Positions 1 to 50,000 of a DNA stretch of 64,000 bases are shown here, one piece after another. The translations under genes and the position numbers were made by a program. The notes beneath the pieces are model-generated. The model did not search any database. It had not been told where the DNA came from and saw nothing but the letters and a program-made list of their open reading frames with translations. Source of the stretch: Harmothoe impar (taxonomy: Eukaryota; Annelida; Polychaeta; Phyllodocida; Polynoidae); NCBI GenBank assembly GCA_947462335.1, contig OX381705.1:38091570-38155569 (forward strand). The letters run 5' to 3'. Every line of letters starts with the position of its first letter. Within the stretch, counting starts at the first letter, position 1.

Positions 1-83
1 GCTATAAAGAGAAGGACTGGGTAGCAGTGACAGCGGGAGGCGGGTAGAGCCCAGACCACCTTGTACCGAGGCTGTTCACTTAC

Positions 84-196
84 CTTGTCATATGGCAGAG
101 GTCCACTCAATGGGAAGCGTAGCGTGTTCGGATTCAGTTTCCACACATTGGCTGTTGAACTGGAGTGACCGACAACAGGCAGCAAGCTTGATCTCC
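84..196 (-). CDS. MED23: MED23 coding exon 8
   Basis: 113 bases. Acceptor TTTTGCAG|GG and donor GACAAG|GTAAGT. Completes the glycine of exon 7 and reads RSSLLPVVGHSSSTANVWKL to the conserved LPYDK end. Phase 0 at the donor, so the gene continues beyond position 1. Confidence 0.92.
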
Positions 197-3100
197 CTGC
201 AAAACAAGTAAAGTACTGACTATCAGAAAACACTAATATATTTATCCTACTAAAAGGACACACATATTACTTTTCAATAGGTTTGGCTGAGGAAGTGAAG
301 TGTGAAAGATTGGGCATGTGATCGCTTCACAATAGACAAAGGACCTTTGAAAGGTATTATAGGAAAAAAGTCATTCAAAGTGGTTGCATCGTGCAGGATA
401 GACCCCCCACCCCTAGCTCTGGTGGTGTTATCTGACAAGCAGCGAATGGTTTTGCCCACATAGTCTTTAGCATAGACTTTTAGCCCTAAGAGTACTGCTT
501 TGGTCTCTTTGATGTTGGTATAGAGAGTCCTTCCCTCCAACAACCATAGACCTCTGGTGCTGTCAGCTCCACACACAGCCCCCACCCAGTGTATGAGGAG
601 TCTGTGATAACAGTTGTCACTGGCTCTTGTAGTCTTACTGTTCTACAACCCTTGTCCAGATTATCTAGCCATCAGAAAAGGATGTCAGCAGCTACGGCTT
701 TGAACTTGAGTGGGTGTTACTGTCATCCTACTGGTGTTGATGGTATACCCGAGGAAGGCCAATTCTCTGGTGGGCTTGACTATGCTCTTGTTTATAATAT
801 GTATTTTGAAACCTAAGCCCACCGGCATGTCCTGTAGCTTATCTATGGTTCTAACTCTCCCGTCAGCACCACTTTAGTTGTGCTGTCGGAGAACAAGGGA
901 GAAGACACCGGACCGGAAGTCGTCAGTTGCGCGTGCGCATTGGATCAGACAAGACGCAGTGAAAGAGCTCCGGTGAGTTTGTGTTTAAAATCTTTATTTT
1001 TTCAGTACAAACTCCAGTGGGAGTCCAAAAAACGCGTATCATCCCTTTATAAAGGTTTGTTCCGTTTCTGGTTGGCGGTGTTAACCAGTTTTTATGTTGT
1101 ATTTTGCAGAAAAACACAGTTTGCTGCGAATACACGTGGGACCGCTGTAGCCGCCATCTTGGTTTGTTCAAGAAACGCACGTGCGACGGCCCAAACATGC
1201 CCAATTCGAACGATAACTGCTCGTTGGATGGCGAGTATAATGAAGATGGGCTGAGTCAAGTCTCAGAAGCAGTAGATGAGCCAAATGAGATGGAAGGGGC
1301 AGCTCAAGAAACTGCCCGGAGTGTTGCCAGTGCCGCTACCGGAGTCACGCCGGCGCAGGGCACTGGCCGGGGCCGTCACCCACGTTCCCCCACTAGACAA
1401 GGTGCACGTTGGAGGGACTGGCAGATCTCCGCTGATGATCTAGAAACTGTAAGTGATCAGGAGTTTCTTCGTAGAGAGAGACAACGTTTGGCGGAGTACA
1501 GCAAGCAGCTGGAAGAGAGACGTCAACGCCTCAATCAGGAGGAACAGCAGCGGAATAGACGCCGCCACATGGCTGCTGACGCTGACGCTGACAGCCAGGC
1601 TAGTCATGTCAGCCGAGGCAGTCAGCCTGCTAGAAGGAGGATGACACATTCTATGTCTCCTGCTCCTGGGCGTCAGGGTGGCCCTAACAACCCTGGTGAT
1701 TCTGATTATGCCGCCAGCTTTCTTTTTGACGAAGATGACCTGGAGGGAGAGTCGGTGTCACAAGCTGGACTGCTGTCACACCACTCCGACCAGGTGTCAA
1801 CTGCACCACGTGCCGCGGAACAAGTTGACACTGACGAGGGGCAGGAACCAACCAAACCGGCCAAGAGAAAGGCCGCAGGCACAGTTGCAACTAAGGCAAC
1901 CAAGAAAGCCAAGAAGCCTGATAATGCAGAAGAAGAGCAGGAAGAGGAAGTTAACCCATTTGAGAATTGGGATGATAGCCCATTTGCGGCAGCAGCGCAG
2001 GCTGCGGTCCAAGAAGCTGAACGAGAAAATGTATCTGGTGAAGTCACCCCAGGTATGGCGAAGTTGTTGTCCACCTTTCATCGAAATTGCAAGGATCTCA
2101 GTAAAGCTAAAGAGTTGGTTGCAAAGTACCCCCCACCGAAAAATGCTGCATCTCTGGTTGCACCTAGAATGGACCAGGGATTCTATCGTTCAGAAGAAGT
2201 GGATTATGCTACAAAGAGGGCAGATAAAGAGCTTCAGCTGACTCAATCAGCGATTCTGGCTTCCATAGTGGCAATTCTTCCTATACTGGAGCTAATGGTG
2301 AGTCGAGGAAAGAAGGATGAACCATTAGCAGAGACTGGTCAAGCAGCCATTGATGCTATGCAGTTGGCTTTCTATGCCAATACATCAGTGGTTCGCCGTA
2401 GGAGACAGGCCCTACGCCCCAATCTGGATCGACGAGTTGTGCATTCTGTGGTGGATGCTGATGTAAGTGGAGCAAATTTGTTTGGGGAAAATGTTGAAGA
2501 AACTGTCGCACAAGCAAAGAAATCTGATCGACTAGTCCGTGACCTGATGGGCCCACCTAGAACGCCACGTGGACGAGCCCCCCAGAGAGGTCGAGGAGGT
2601 CGTGGCCGAGGGGCACCACCCAACCAGCACACTGGCAGAGGGGGTTTTCGAGGAGCCCCTCCCTCAGCCCGCGGTCGCAGAGGAGGACGCAGGGGTGGCG
2701 CGGGCAGAGGGGGTCGTCGGGACCATCGAGATCTCTCTCACCACAGCCCACTCGACGGAGCTTACCCCCACGACAAGAGCTACAAACGGAAAGACGACTA
2801 GAGGTGGGTGCAGAAGGTGTGTCCAATTTTCAATTAACTCCTGTACTAGATATGTCTGACCTAGTCCATACCCCGGAAAACTTCCAGGCTGGTCAGATTA
2901 CTCATTTTGTTGCACAGTGGTCTGACTATACTGGAGACAGATGGGTTTTAGACCAAGTAAGCGCGATGAGAATACCTTTTGTGCAAAACCCCATACAACA
3001 ATCTGTTCCGTTTCCCTATTCTCTAGGAACTGTAGAATCTGAAGGTATAGATGTACAAATTGGAAAAATGTTGAACAAAGGGGTAATTGAGGAGACGGTC

Positions 3101-6100
3101 CATACCAGGGGGGAATGGATCTCTAATATTTTCCCAAGGCCCAAGCCTGATGGGGAGGTCCGTGTTATCTTGGATTTGACTCAACTAAATAAATTAGTGG
3201 AGTATCAACATTTCAAGATGCATGGGTTGACCACAGCTTTGGATCTCATGCAAACCGACTCTCATCTCGCTTCACTTGACCTGAAAGACGCTTATTATTC
3301 CCTGAAAATCCATGAAGACGATCGCAAGTATTTGAGATTCTATTGGAGGGGAATATTGTATCAATTTACGTCTCTCCCTAATGGGTTGTCGTGTGGACCA
3401 CGGTATTTCACAAAGATTTTGACCCCTATCTTTGCTGAAGCCCACAGGAGGGGAATTGAGTGTTTCCAGTACATTGATGATGTGTTCATTATACATGAAA
3501 CGTATGAGGGATGTGCTGAATCAGTCAGGGAATTAGCCTACCTGCTAGATAGTGTAGGGTTAGTGGTACATCCTAGTAAATCCTCACTTATACCTTCAAC
3601 CACAATGAAGTTTTTGGGATTTATGCTGGATTCCCATCATAGGATTGTGTATCTCCCAGAAGATAAGATTGTAAAAATGGAGAAAGTTACTGCGACCATG
3701 CTGGACACAGAATTTCCTACCATTCAATCGGTGGCTGAACTTGTGGGGTTGATGACTGCCTATACACCAGCTGTTGATTATGGAATTGCTCACATCAAAG
3801 TGTTAGAGAGAAATAAAAATTCTGCCCTAGTAAGAACGGGAAGGGATTACACCCAGACCATGACCCTTTCAGAGGAAGCCAGAAATGAAATCTTATGGTG
3901 GCATGACCACGCCCGCCAAGCCTACCGGGTAATTAGGGGAGAACCTGACCTAGTAGTTGAGACTGATGCAAGCCATGGAGGCTGGGGGGCTGTATCTCTA
4001 GGGGTAGAGACAAATGGGAGATGGACGGAGGATGAAATGGCTCATATTAATATCCTAGAATTGAGAGCCATTCTACTTGGGATTCAATCTTTCCTCCCTG
4101 ATGAGCCTACATTTGTCCATGTAACGACGGACAATACAACAGCTAAGGCGTATGTTAATAAAGGGGGTGGTGTCAAATCACTAGAGTGTCATGCAGAAGC
4201 CAAAGACATTTGGAACTGGTTAGAGCAACATGGACATTGGATTGAGGTATCTTTCATTCCGGGTTGCCAAAATGATGCAGCAGATAAGGCCTCCAGGGTG
4301 TTTGCTGACAATCTTGAATGGTCCTTGAGTGACAAGTTGTTTGATAAGATCTGCAGCGTTTTTGGCACACCTGAGATTGATTTGTTTGCCTCAAGAGAGA
4401 ATGCAAAATGTCCACTGTACATGTCCTACAAACTTGATCCAGGATCAATACATGTAGATGCGTTTACTACTGTTTGGACTAACTGGTATGTTTATGCTTT
4501 TCCTCCACCCAGACTACTGCCAAGAGTGCTCAAGAAGATACACGCGGATCGCCCCAAGAAGGCCGTTATCGTTGCCCCGCAATGGCCAACAGCTCATTGG
4601 TTCCCTCGGCTACAAGTCAGGGCGAAGCGAGGAATAAACATCGGGAGAAAAAGAAGCAACCTCCAGCAAAATCAGGACGTAACCAACAGGTTCCCCAAAG
4701 GACTGGGTTTGATTATTTCAGAAATTTAGAATTTCAGTTAATGACAGAGCTCAAGTGTAACCGAGCTACTGCAAAATTCCTGATTGAAAGTTGGAAGAAG
4801 GGAACACAGAAAGTATATAATCAATACATTAAGAAGTGGTTTACCCATTGTATCATTAAGAACATAGATAAGTTTGGTGATTCTGAAGCGAATGTGTGTG
4901 ACTTCATACGGGTTATGTCTGATGAAAACTACTCGTATGGAGCTGTGAATGCAGCGAGATGTGCTCTCTCTGTGGTGCTGCCCAAGACCTCTACTCAGGA
5001 CACAATGGGTAAGAGGTACTGGGTAACTAGGGCGTGTAGATCTGCCTACCTGCGAAACCCTCCCAAACCAAAACACTCCTATTTTTGGGACGTACGCCTT
5101 ATTTTTGATACGTTGAGGTCATGGGGGAGAAACTCCAAAATGACTCTGAGCAGGTTGGGTAGAAAAGTGTTGTGTCTTATGTTACTGATATCAGGACATC
5201 GAGGCCAAATGGCCCTAGCATTAACTCTTGAAAACATGGAAGAGTGGGATGACGGGTCGGTGTCATTCACCCTGCTATTCCCTATGAAGACAGCCAAAAC
5301 TGGTGAGAAGTTATTGAAAGTGAACTTCAAGCCTTACCACAAAGATGTCCGTTTGTGTGTGGTTAGGGCACTCCGCAGGTATGTGGAAAGGACAGCGCCT
5401 AAAAGGACATCACAGAAATTGTTTGTATCGTACATTTCCCCATATGGGGCTGTGAAGAGAGACACCATATCCAGATGGGTCGTGTTGACCATGAGGGCAA
5501 GTGGGATCAACACAAAAAGGTTTGGGGCTCATTCTCTCAGAGGTGCAGGTGTGTCCTCGGGAGCTAGACTTGGGGTATCTACAGATCTGATGCTCAAGTA
5601 TGGCTCTTGGAGGAATGAGGCCACTATGGCTCGGCACTATCTGAAGAAGGTACAGGTTGCTCCTAAGAAGAGCTTAGGAGAACAATTGTTAGATGCTGTC
5701 TAGAAACAGCTGGTGCAAATGTTGTTGTTAACACAGAAAGAGATCTGTAAATGAATTTTATTTTTACAAAGGTACTTTTACAATTGTTGATTTTATGTTG
5801 TTAAGTCTGCGGGTAGCAAGACTCTAAAACATACAGTTTTTACAAACTGGTTAAGTAGTGAAGACATTACTTCCTAGAAACACATACCCCGAGTCTGAGG
5901 GTTTTACAGTTGTTAAGGATTGTTCGTTGTTGTGAACAATAAAAGTTCTGTTATTAAATTCAGATTTCGCTTATTATTTAATTAGTGGAGTCTGACCCGG
6001 GAAAGCAAAATTGGGCTTTGAAATTCTCCCTTGTTCTCCGACAGCACAACTAAAGTGGTGCTGACGGGAGAGTTAGAATAGGTAATTACCCGAGGAACTT

Positions 6101-9100
6101 ACCTTGGTTAGTTATGAAGGGGAATTGATGTTCTAACGATGCCTCAGCACCACTAGTTGGGCTGAGGAGGACGAGGGCCCACCCTCCTTCCCCTAAAAGC
6201 AGGATAGTAAATAGACTGATCAAGGTAATTACTATTCTAATTAAATTAATTTGTTACTTCCAATTTAACTTTCCCTTAATGCTCCCGCTCTAAACTGACG
6301 ACTTCCGGTCCGGTGTCTTCTCCCTCGTCCTCCTCAGCCCAACTAGTGGTGCTGAGGCATCGTTAGAACATCAATTCCCCTTCATAACTAACCAAGGTAA
6401 GTTCCTCGGGTAATTACCTATTTGTTCATGTTGTTTTTAAGTTTCTCCCATAATGAAGGTGTCGTCAATATAGCCAAACACGAGTGCCCATGCTCTTGCA
6501 GCATGGCAAACACCGTCTTCAGTACTTTAGTAAATGTTCTGGGAGCCTGTGCTAGTCCATTGGGTAGGCATGTGTATTGGTACATCTCCCCCCCCCCCCC
6601 TCCCATCCAAACCTAAGGAGCATTTGTTCTTCCTCCATTACAGGGATGGAGTATTGTAAGGACGCCAAATAGTAATCTTTTTGTATTACTGTAACTCTAT
6701 TGTTGTCTGTAGGCTGTCCATATTGAAATTTCTGTAGACTACAGAGTCATTGAGGTCAGACAGATCCAGAATCAGACGGTGTTTACTGACTTTTCACTCA
6801 GGGAGAACTTCAGTGTATCCTGTCTGAGATATGTCTGCGTCCGACATCGCTACAGCTACAGCAGTCATGGCATCTGTCATGTTTAACTGCAACCTCATGC
6901 CCATGAGTCGGCCATTTTGGGTAGTGGCCTGCTTCAAAGCATTGTTCAGCTGAGGCGGCTCCAGCGTGGGTGCGTTACCCGGGGACGGGAACTGATTTCT
7001 CTTTTCTTTGACAAATCTGTTCTCAAAAGGCTGACCAATGGCCATCTTGAAGACACTTAAAACCTTTTGTTGAAGTTCTTCACTGGTCTTCTCTCCTTCC
7101 TCCAAGACTTCATCTAAGTTCTTGTAGTACTCCAGAAAAGGTTCTCCTCGTCAGAGTCGCCATCTTGACTGCGGTCACCTACTTGGCCGATGTAGTGGTG
7201 TCCTCCTCTAGCGTGGTCAGCGCGGCCGCCATTGTCGGTACTGCTGCCGTCACTGTCACCATTGTCCAAGATGATTGCCGAGGCCTTCCTCTTACCGTAA
7301 AACCTCGCGTATAAGCCGCGGCTTGTACGCGAATCAGACTCAGCTTTCTTTTGATATCAAACATGCCTTTATAGGGTGCGGCGTATACAAGAGTTTTTAT
7401 AAGTACCGTAAAACCTCGCGTATAAGCCTTACTCGCGTGTAAGCCGCACCGAGAGTTTGGGCTGATCCTATAAGCCGCAATAGCGATCTGAGTTTGGTAA
7501 CTTTCAGTACTGTGCCATAGTAGCAAAAACTCGCGTATAAGCCACACCCTGACCCTGGGCCGATCCTATAAGCCGCACCGCCGATCTGACTCGCGTACTA
7601 GCCGCGGCTTATACGCGAGGTTCACGGTATACTACAGTACCAAATTAACAATTCTCAGATGGCCTTTGCGGCTTATAGGATCACACCAAACTCGGGGTGC
7701 GGCTTATACGCGAGTTAGGCTTATACACGAGGTTTCACGGTAGCACCCTTTTGTTTCAGGACTAGACTGTCTTTCATGTGAATAAACTTATCTCTGATTG
7801 CTTCTTTGATCATGCCGCTCCGCTCAATGCGACATGCATCTTCAGAGGGGTCAGGAGACCCACAGTCAGCAGTGTCAGCATTGCCAGCAGAGCGTGTACC
7901 GGGTGCCATGTTTGGTCAGCCGGTCAAAAACTCAAATGTGCTCAGGGATCTGGTCTCGCAACTACTAGCCACAGATTGAGTCTGAGTTTGCCAAAAAATA
8001 CTGCTGCAAGAGCTATAGACCGAGAGCAGTATTATAGTTCACTTTTCACAGTAAAAACAGGTGTTGTTAAGGGTAAATCCGATCTTTAGAAGGGGTGATG
8101 TGAATCGAAGCGTGCATCTGCCACACAAGTTTGTGTGCTACTGCTTAATGCGCATGTGCATGGTGCGCATCTCTGTTGATACTACTACGACGGCCAGCAA
8201 CCAGCTATAAACTTCTAGTACAATCCACAAAGTGCAGACAAAATTTAAATATCTATTTCTTAGATACCTGTCCCCCGATGTTGACTAATTGTTGCTTTTG
8301 CTCCTATTGGTCAGAGTGACCTTAATTGAACTACAGATAAGATCTAAGGTGCTTCAAAAACATCTTAATTTTAGGGCGAAACCAGTCCTATATCCCAGGG
8401 TTAAATATAGCGGTCTACCGTTATAGCAGTCCATCAAACTATAAGATATATGTAAATATTGGCTGCGTGGTGTCTATCACTATAATACATCCAGCAATTG
8501 AGAATGGGAGAACGGGATAAAGGGATAAAGGGAGAACGGGGATAAACGTAGAAGGGGATAGACGTAGAAGGGGATGAATGGAGAACGGGATAAACGGAGA
8601 AGGGGATAAAGGGAGAACAGGATATATGGAGAACGGGATAAACAGAGAACGGGATAGACGGAGAACAGGATAAACGGAGAACGGGATAAACGGGAGAAAG
8701 GGAGAACGGGATAAACGGAGAACGGGATAAACGGTGAATGCTATAAACGGCAAACGGGATAAACAGAGAACGGGATAAACGGAGAACGGGATAAACGGAG
8801 AACGGGATAAACGGAGAACGGGATAAACGGAGAACGGGATGAAGGGAGAACGGGACAAACGGAAAGTGGAGAAGGGGATGAATGGATTAAGAGAGAACGG
8901 GAGAAAGGGAGAACGGGATAAATGGAGAACGGGGTAAATGGAGAAAGCTATAAACGGCGAACACGATAAACGGAGAACGGGATAAACAGAAAAGGGGATA
9001 AACGGATGAAGGGAGAACGGGAGAAAGGGAAAATGGGAGAAAGGGATAAACAGAGAACGCTATAAACGGAGAACGGGATGAACGGAGAAAGGGAAAACAG

Positions 9101-47035: not shown

Positions 47036-50000
47036 NNNNNNNNNNNNNNNNNNNNNNNNNNNNNNNNNNNNNNNNNNNNNNNNNNNNNNNNNNNNNNNNN
47101 NNNNNNNNNNNNNNNNNNNNNNNNNNNNNNNNNNNNNNNNNNNNNNNNNNNNNNNNNNNNNNNNNNNNNNNNNNNNNNNNNNNNNNNNNNNNNNNNNNNN
47201 NNNNNNNNNNNNNNNNNNNNNNNNNNNNNNNNNNNGGGGGGGGCGTAATATGATCGGCAACAATCCGTTAGAGTCCATTGTTCTCAATTACAAAAAAGGA
47301 AGCATTCTAGTCTTTTCCAGTTGGTGTATAATACACTCATCTGCTAGTGCTTGTATTTAGAACCAGAGATAAATTAAAGAAAGCTTTTACCTGAAAAAAA
47401 AAACTAAATTGCCCGCTCTCGTTGCCCGCACAGTTAGACTTTTGGAAAGAGCTGTATCCCTAAATGGCCATTAATTGATTTAAAGGCTTTAATAGAGCTC
47501 ACAATACATGTGTTTTAATTACGTGCATTCTACACGGGGCATTCTATTGCTAATTAAGCTGGTATGGACAACCTAACATGTAATATATGGAAACTCAGCG
47601 ACAGACAAGTATCGATAACAAGTTACAACCATAGTGTAACGGTACATGAGTAGGGTGTGATATCTTATCTGCTGTATAAACGGATATGAAACGATGCTTA
47701 TGTCTAATAAAAATTTACAAATCTAATTATGGAATGGGAAACTAACCTGCACACTCTATTATATATAATACATGGTATTACACTGGTCAGTATTAGTACA
47801 ATACATATCAATTGTGTGCATCTACATGGGTACTCAGATTTTTGACCATGTCGCCGTGTCGATTTTTAGCCTGAGGGCTGTGTCGCGTGTCGAGTTTTAT
47901 ATGTTTAGAATATACTAGGACCTCCTACTATAACCCCAAAAAAACGAAAAATAATATTGGGCCGTAATTGGTGGTAATTTGCTTCAGCATAGGGCTCTAT
48001 GGGAGCGCGAAGATAACTGACAACCCCAAATTTGGATATTTCGTGACAACCAATGCTATCTCTATGGGAGGAGTAGGTGAGACACTTTTTTTCAGACATC
48101 TATCAAACACTTAAGTACTAGAGGTAATTTACAGGGGAGGTTACTTGCTATTATTTGTGTGCCTTCGGCCTCTGGCGAGTCGCATCGCTACCCTTGCCCC
48201 CCCCCCCCCCCCACAACTACTCCTCACTGAGCCCCTCCCCCTCCCACTGACCTGCGTGACCTTAATAGGCTCTCTCTCGAGTCTATGGTCACCCTGCTCT
48301 GCCCTGATGTAGCTTAACAATGTGTGGAGTAACTGGCAGGGCCCCAGTGTAGTTACTCCCAGCTTGGTGGTCACCATACAGGACAATCCAACATGGCGCC
48401 CTCCATGGAGGCTGCTGCTGCCCGAAAAGGCACATCCGTTATATGTAGTAGTGTCTGTAAACAGTGATAACCCTGATTCACTTTGCACTGACAATGCACA
48501 TATTGTTACAAAGACTATATGGAAATGTGAGTGGAGGGCCAGACACTGTAGAGACCAGGGCAGCTTAACTTGCAGTCTATTTGAAGAGACAGATTGGTCT
48601 GTTAATCGACAGTGAAAGTACCACACACCACTGTCGCAGACCAACCTGTGGTGGTGATATTCGCACCTCTACGATGTGCGTATAGCATTCCCCACTCGCA
48701 CCTCCTCGAGGTGTGGATAAGAATTCTTATTCGCACCTCGAGGAGGTGTAGGCTGGTTTCACTATTCGGACCTCGAGGAGGTTTAGCACAGGGGGCCATA
48801 GGGGGGGGGGGACAGGGGCACAATTTCTGACCTGTCGGGGGTAGAGGAGGGTAAGGGAGTGTTCATTCATTAAATACAGGGGGGGTGGTGGGATTTCGCG
48901 CGGAGGGGCGAACATTTCTTAAGCCGATAACGCGTAGAGTGCTTCACGCCCCCCTCGCCGGAGGAGCCGAAATATGTTTGCCCCCCCCCTTGAACTACAG
49001 TAACACACAGGCTTTTTTGCTTAAAAGGGGCTGAAATTTGTTCCTAATTATTATTGGCTAAGTGGATCGCTCTGCTGTTGGAGTGTTATATAATGGTGCG
49101 TAGCCAATGTTTGTTATAGGGGTCTCAGATTTCACTATATTGCTTCTATGTGCTATAATGCTTTACACTAGTCATGGATTAGTGTTCTATGTATTGTTAG
49201 GCCAGACCAAAAAAAAAATTGGTCAATGGATTTCGCGCACCTTATTTTCGGAAATGGAAATTATTTTTTTTGAAAAAAAAATTGTCAATGGATTTCGCTC
49301 GACTCCTTTTTTCTCAAAATTGAGAATTTTTTTTTTTTCAAATTTTTCTTCCAATAATTCCCCCAGATCAACCAATAAATTTTTATGTTAGGGGTCCACT
49401 AAGAACTTTTGTCAAAGACTGAAGACTGGGTTAAAAAAAATAAAAAATTGTCGCTCGCTCCACTTTTCCACTGACAAAATTCATTGACAAAAAAAAAATC
49501 TTTTAATTTTTTTTCGCTCGCTCGCACCATTTTTTGAAAAGTGAAATCCATTTTTTGGTGTGGCCTTATCCAACTTTACCCATGGTTACAGAGATATGAC
49601 TTGATATCTTCATGTATTTCAAGAAATGTTAAGAAAAAAAGGTGCCTGAAACGGGGCTGAAATTGTCTATATGATATAGTACAGGCTTAGGTCTCTATGT
49701 GATATAGTACAGCTATAGGTGTCTATATGATATAGTACAGGTTTAGGTGTCTATATGATACAGGGGTAGACACTAACATTTAAGACCATGGGCCACCCGG
49801 GCTCGCAGCCTCAGAAAGCTGGGGGCCCGGAAGTAAAGTTGTGGGCCCGGGAATTTCAATATTAAAGTCAGAAAGGGGTGGAAAAAATCTTCTTCACAAT
49901 GAAGCAGAGACAATATGTTTTTACTACTTGTCCTATTCACTCTCACGGACTCTCACTCTGCATATATTTCCAATCATTTGACAGACCTATGGCTGGGCCC

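Follow-up and report, generated by a model that had tools for sequence, protein, structure and literature searches.

DIRS1-like retrotransposons are described with inverted terminal repeats (ITRs), an internal complementary region (ICR), an extension, a 3-bp junction, a characteristic order of protein domains and integration without target duplication (PMC3266345). DIRS elements have been found in annelid transcriptomes and are reported there as well represented in Polynoidae (PMC8556966). Here we analyzed a DIRS element in a stretch of 64,000 nucleotides (nt) from the polynoid Harmothoe impar (GCA_947462335.1, contig OX381705.1, positions 38,091,570 to 38,155,569 of the forward strand), referred to below as the window. 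The element, at 849–6420 of the window, is very probably a DIRS1-like tyrosine-recombinase retrotransposon of complete structure, inserted into a different repeat with reverse transcriptase (RT)-like coding, and would replicate by an ICR-based cycle.

Anatomy of the element

The ends of the element and its ICR are built from the following parts, with copy counts referring to the sample described below.

849–903, plus strand: left terminus (lTer), starting TTCTAAC after the target base G848; boundary identical in 21 of 21 copies
860–889, plus strand: imperfect palindrome of the left terminus, its centre differing between lineages
896–928, plus strand: conserved part of the left ITR, strict complement of 6293–6325
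6024–6078, minus strand: left ICR, reverse complement of 849–903, exact over 55/55 positions
6076–6082, no strand: circle-junction sequence GAATAGG, identical in 40 of 40 copies examined
6079–6177, minus strand: right ICR, reverse complement of 6322–6420, exact over 99/99 positions
6293–6368, plus strand: right ITR, with a conserved part (6293–6325) and a divergent part (6326–6368)
6332–6357, plus strand: imperfect palindrome of the right terminus, with its right-ICR copy at 6142–6167 and compensatory arm changes in related copies
6369–6420, plus strand: right extension (rE) of 52 nt, with a counterpart in the right ICR and none in the left terminus

The two ICR halves abut at 6078/6079 and show 0 differences from the ends over 154 nt. 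The exact match of the right end can be prolonged to 101 nt (6077–6177 against 6322–6422). By the convention that counts the shared trinucleotide with the ends, the element spans 848–6422, starting with GTT, ending with ATT and having AAT as its junction. As expected for DIRS1-like elements, the ITRs are inverted, with a strictly complementary core and a divergent part alongside; the two ICR halves are complementary to the outer ends and meet at the AAT junction; and the 52-nt rE provides the extension, at least one of which is typical of the class. A chance origin of the inverted repeats was rejected, as they are too long and too exact.

Coding capacity

Three open reading frames (ORFs) lie between the ends.

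1197–2801, plus strand: ORF1, in Gag-like position; open frame 1053–2801, first ATG at 1197
2561–4729, plus strand: ORF2, with putative reverse transcriptase, RNase H-like and Dam-like methyltransferase domains (Pfam); first ATG at 2852
4483–5703, plus strand: ORF3, putative tyrosine recombinase; first ATG at 4582; overlaps ORF2 by 247 nt

ORF1 matched no Pfam family over the cut-off. ORF2 gave a clear match to RVT_1 (E 1.2e-21), and the RT motif YIDD can be read in its translation. The order of RT, RNase H and Dam-like domain is that expected for a DIRS1-like element. No hidden frameshift was found in the window copy.

ORF3 of the window copy had a single weak match in Pfam (Phage_int_SAM_4, E 0.014), and 16 of 21 ORF3 homologues carry PF00589. 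The candidate recombinase residues are R240, K269, H350, R353, W376 and Y386 (numbering of 4483–5703), which we presume to have the catalytic roles. K269, H350, R353 and W376 are invariant across 22 aligned rows, and R240 and Y386 are at least 90% conserved. The predicted structure of ORF3 had a mean predicted local distance difference test score (pLDDT) of 75.5, with residues 1–76 below 50, and its best PDB matches were Cre recombinase (E 2.1e-8, TM score ~0.5 by query length). Searched by sequence against PDB, ORF3 matched 12 entries at E values of up to 10; none of them is named as a recombinase. Based on the PF00589 homologues, the conserved residues and the Cre-like model, ORF3 is a predicted tyrosine recombinase, standing in the place of a DDE integrase.

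An earlier note on this DNA, made from the letters of the window, had described an apparently intact DIRS element with termini paired to equal-length ICR halves, three open frames with catalytic residues, and the logic of a circle junction. Alignment of 849–903 with 6024–6078 (55/55) and of 6079–6177 with 6322–6420 (99/99), meeting at 6078/6079, confirmed the pairing. The frames (1053–2801, 2561–4729 and 4483–5703) are open and contain YIDD and the recombinase candidates, and the exact ICR, domain order and constant junction bear out both the DIRS identity and the junction logic.

Copies in the genome, their age and activity

The source genome comprises 1.51 Gb, and all copy counts given here are lower bounds. 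A search with 849–1200 (40 of 78 candidates scored) gave 56 matches, 22 of them 5' ends of at least 264 nt and the remainder short ICR or ITR pieces. The window copy and 20 fetched copies constitute tier 1, 21 copies in all, each having an ICR and both ends; a 22nd 5'-end place (C57, 278 nt matched) lies outside this set. Because tier-1 copies were found via the window copy's own 5' end, fragments are under-sampled. Internal deletions or insertions are present in some (L022, L024, L027, L034). When 6178–6420 was used for searching (40 of 157 candidates scored), the 21 tier-1 right ends were recovered at 86–100% identity, followed by 19 right ends at 76–85%. These 19 form tier 2 (L056–L074), for which the last ~500 bases of each were compared. 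Tier 2 is a sister group that shares the junction, differs in the palindrome of the right end and is less strict in the target base on the right; it is possibly larger, as 117 of the 157 candidates were unscored. The copies found are spread over many contigs. A scan of IMG/VR for relatives gave 30 pattern hits, none confirmed.

Long open frames are common among these copies: in 15 of the 21 tier-1 copies, ORF1, ORF2 and ORF3 are open over at least 525, 697 and 406 codons, respectively (stop-to-stop frame lengths, not based on start codons). The earlier note argued from the broken state of most genomic DIRS copies that this one is a candidate for a live element; the argument is not borne out, and openness does not single out the window copy. 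The stronger version, in which only the window copy is intact, was rejected on the same count. Open copies are also not unusual for DIRS, given that most recovered copies of DIRS-37_XT from Xenopus tropicalis are termed putatively functional in PMC9210276.

Tier 1 consists of nine single copies and six close pairs (98.2–99.94% identity). Over the BLAST-aligned interior, identity to the nearest other lineage is 74.8–77.9% (69.0% for L040). L021, the nearest copy scored, is located on another chromosome with other flanks and is 99.0% identical to the window copy over 5572 nt (50 substitutions and 6 gap columns); its ORF2 is broken by a small insertion. The expectation of further copies at near-zero divergence was thus disappointed for the window copy among those scored. 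Only L038 and L039, from another lineage of the group, are that close (99.94%), suggesting recent movement within the group. Between the window copy and L021 we counted 14 synonymous and 9 replacement differences in ORF1, 9 and 5 in ORF2, and 1 and 3 in ORF3 outside the overlap (1 and 5 for the whole frame). The sums of 24 synonymous differences over ~1027 sites and 17 replacement differences over ~3476 sites yield a ratio of ~0.2, a value suggesting that selection acted while most of the divergence accumulated. In our reading, the lineages are old, the individual copies young and copy numbers low, with the window copy one of many that are open.

Present-day activity of the window copy appears evenly poised. 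As a candidate for a live element, as the earlier note had proposed, it retains its open frames and complete ICR; it is not special in this respect (15 of 21), and its nearest scored relative is 1% away. A recently dead copy, inserted lately by an active source and no longer moving, is nearly an even prospect and competes with the live-copy part of the interpretation only. The 99.0% identity of the nearest relative, with none closer in the scored set, and the lack of a purifying signal in ORF3 against L021 speak for such a copy, whereas the open state of all frames, the presence of the catalytic residues and the identity of ICR and ends throughout 154 nt speak against it.

The ends and the ICR change together

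In tier 1, the left-end segment that lies between AGCACC and GTTGTGC is variable, occurring in nine variants of 4–6 nt, and in 21 of 21 copies the same letters are present in the copy's own left ICR. Shuffling the pairing of left ends and ICRs 100,000 times gave a mean of 3.7 and a maximum of 12 matches, compared to the 21 observed. Over 53–55 nt, left ICR and left end are identical in 19 of the 21 copies (exceptions L034 and L037). Similarly, the right end equals its own right ICR over the first 95 nt in 16/21 copies of tier 1 and 17/19 of tier 2 (33/40). The mean distance of the right end to its own ICR was 0.25 (40 copies), compared to 1.96 (tier 1) and 6.94 (tier 2) for the ICRs of others; the summed distances to the own ICR were 7 and 3, with 11 and 65 as the smallest values in 20,000 shuffles. 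Some variants recur on separate branches of a tree of the RT region (20 copies, without L034, which has an insertion; states were matched by eye). The changes thus seem to have occurred repeatedly and to have reached both end and ICR each time. This joint change is as expected if the ends are copied from the ICR during replication. With 21 two-ended copies from distant lineages, the model of the ICR as template becomes testable from sequence alone.

Gene conversion within each chromosomal copy, instead of copying during replication, would likewise make ends and ICR change together, and the timing of the events is not fixed by sequence comparison. We nevertheless consider it very unlikely to be what keeps the two alike: left terminus and left ICR are 5 kb apart and inverted, and unrepaired differences persist in five of the 21 copies (L022, L027, L034, L035, L037), as would be expected if copying took place once at birth and was followed by decay.

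Junction and insertion site

The base preceding TTCTAAC in tier 1 is A in 14 copies and G in 7 (n=21). At the right end, CCTA is followed by T in 21/21 tier-1 copies, next by T (15), A (5) or C (1), and then by T in 18/21. Tier 2 has T at the first of these positions in 16/19 copies and A in 3/19 (L064, L066, L072).

The empty site of the window copy was analyzed at 12 loci, representing several overlapping places. In L042, a related repeat, the flanks joined at 848/6421 align across the join with no gap and no target duplication. L044 (L046 is the same place) aligns across the join with a 20-nt gap that begins 4 nt to its right, and L045 has one extra base immediately left of the join. The C1:79334 place (L047, L049, L050, L053) has one alignment piece that spans the join, a result at the level of alignment pieces. 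The stretch around the join is missing in L043, and the alignments of L048, L051 and L052 stop short of it. Integration without target-site duplication, as in DIRS1-like elements, was thus found on L042. From the alignments of the joined flanks, G848 is best read as target base and the A that precedes TT on the right as element base, placing the exchange inside TT. In six copies the second right-hand base is A or C, and there the exchange would fall within one T, if no later mutation occurred. From the whole set of copies, the point of exchange can be placed to within one or two bases.

Proposed replication cycle

In the cycle that we propose, an RNA of the element that is without parts of both ends would be reverse transcribed. 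In the ICR both ends stand back to back, and it would serve as the template or the splint by which the missing parts are regained. End joining would then give a circle with the junction CCT-ATT-CTAAC; a circle in which 6420 meets 849 would show CCTATTCTAAC there, independently of the base next to the chromosomal copy. Finally, the Cre-like recombinase would exchange the circle junction with a short chromosomal match (here G-TT-TG), and hence no target duplication would arise. The exact ICR, the joint changes of ICR and ends, the fixed junction and the empty site without duplication support this scheme directly. The RNA, circle and recombinase steps are taken over by analogy from the published DIRS model and would operate in the same way here.

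Several observations weigh against this interpretation. The analysis covered genome sequence, and neither a transcript nor a circle nor a fresh insertion was seen. The Dam (3.7e-5) and RVT_3 (0.0037) matches of ORF2 are both beneath the curated Pfam cut-offs. The empty site is clean in L042 only; the others compared letter by letter are gapped nearby, and L043 is without the place. The nearest copy found is ~1% distant, and for ORF3 taken by itself the comparison with it gives no sign of purifying selection, on tiny numbers. At the ITR boundary, ~4 nt (AGGG) are common to both ITRs and both ICRs, not at least 10 nt; note that the latter is an observation of the 2011 survey and not a definition (PMC3266345).

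Within 1–8000, no direct repeat of at least 20 nt links the two ends, while inverted repeats do. Membership of another tyrosine-recombinase group (PAT, Ngaro or VIPER), all of which have RT, RNase H and recombinase in common with the element, is scarcely credible and was rejected for lack of direct repeats linking the ends: as characterized in PMC3266345 and PMC9210276, PAT and Ngaro carry split direct repeats, and Ngaro and VIPER are without a methylase domain, whereas the window element has inverted repeats, an ICR and a Dam-like match.

Conservation of the ends and terminal palindromes

We compared 13 other lineages with the window copy (the L034 lineage being left out). Mean identity was 95.9% for left end plus left ICR and 98.6% for right end plus right ICR, compared to 62.8% for ORF1, 71.9% for ORF2, 75.1% for the ORF2/3 overlap and 69.7% for ORF3. 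The values for the 5' untranslated region (UTR), the 3' UTR and the stretch from the ICR to the right ITR were 67.2%, 56.0% and 68.2%, respectively. The conservation of the ends across lineages could be explained by strong constraint or by exchange between lineages alike.

The arms of the left-end palindrome are nearly constant in tier 1 (small departures in L034, L037 and L040), and its centre is variable. In the right-end palindrome the arms show paired changes, from C-G to A-T in L040 and from C-G to T-A in L035 and L037, and L071 has a different, well-paired set of arms. Nearly every palindrome change is also present in the ICR. In a pooled arm-swap test, 39 of the 40 copies contributed 11 distinct right-end segments (the remaining copy yielded none and was dropped). 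Native arm pairs folded better than swapped pairs (-6.28 versus -4.32 kcal/mol), a result reached by 4 of 20,000 permutations. The test was not convincing within tier 1 (three segments; 3211/20,000, i.e. ~1/6, the minimum possible for three segments) or within tier 2 (eight segments; 1131/20,000), so part of the pooled signal reflects relatedness. Direct evidence for pairing comes from the matched changes of L040, L035/L037 and L071, as read from the aligned copies.

The palindromes, together with 96–99% identity in the ends versus 63–75% in coding regions between lineages, could point to a structural site. It is possible, though on balance doubtful, that the palindrome in each terminus is kept by selection despite its fast-changing centre and represents an unreported structural site common to the lineages of this genome. 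Candidate roles would be a dimer site for the recombinase or a hairpin for joining complementary DNA ends. A palindrome in DIRS ends is unmentioned in the titles and abstract openings of the DIRS literature surveyed, which does not prove its absence. The terminal palindrome is a candidate for bench work on DIRS circles.

Surroundings of the element

The host repeat of the insertion (1–848 and 6421–7150) has RT-like coding on the minus strand. Two of its pieces are 39% and 49% identical to ORF2, and the best Pfam match of the three flanking minus-strand frames was a weak RVT_1 (E 0.015). Relatives of the host repeat on C21, C8, C10 and C1 are fragmented and diverged. Direct and inverted repeats are clustered around TACCGTAAAACCTCGCGTATAAGCC at 7293–7742; with arms at 7404–7504 and 7642–7742 that are 84% complementary, the cluster resembles a non-autonomous element of palindromic type. 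At 47036–47235 lie 200 consecutive N, an assembly gap or a withheld stretch.

The genome assembly contains two different mitochondrial-type COI genes, on contigs C736 (L054) and C466 (L055). The former, which adjoins ND3-, ND2- and COII-like frames, we take to be annelid-like, and the latter presumably bivalve-like; the C466 gene may derive from contamination or a companion species.

Comparison with known systems

Among the DIRS1-like elements in Table 3 of PMC3266345, we compared the mollusc elements AcaDIRS1/2 (Aplysia) and LgDIRS1/3 (Lottia). They share with the window element NTT-type ends (ATT there; GTT on the left and ATT on the right here), the AAT junction, an extension on the right alone (48–49 nt there, 52 here), a short conserved ITR (31–36 there, 33 here) and a right ICR about twice as long as the left (39–45 plus 86–88 there, 55 plus 99 here). 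In contrast, the divergent ITR is 30–36 in the molluscs and 47 here, the window element has the 247-nt ORF2/ORF3 overlap where that source reports no long overlap in Mollusca, and only ~4 nt are common to both ITRs and both ICRs here. At 154 nt, the two ICR halves together are longer than in any of the 27 elements for which the table gives sizes.

CaspDIRS1 from the annelid Capitella has ATT/ATT ends, the AAT junction and a long ORF overlap according to the same table; it is reported as chimeric with repeat sizes undetermined, so its anatomy is not comparable (PMC3266345). DIRS-1 of Dictyostelium discoideum is described with three ORFs, an ORF2/ORF3 overlap, RT, RNase H and methyltransferase domains plus a tyrosine recombinase, inverted repeats, an ICR, a right extension and, in its model, no target duplication (PMC5633606, PMC3266345), all as found here. 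It differs in that the conserved ITR measures 304 nt in DIRS1-2 (PMC3266345, Table 3) and in its centromeric location, as opposed to the many contigs that carry copies here. In conclusion, the anatomy of the window element closely matches that of the published DIRS1-like elements (PMC3266345), and the element is ordinary for its class.

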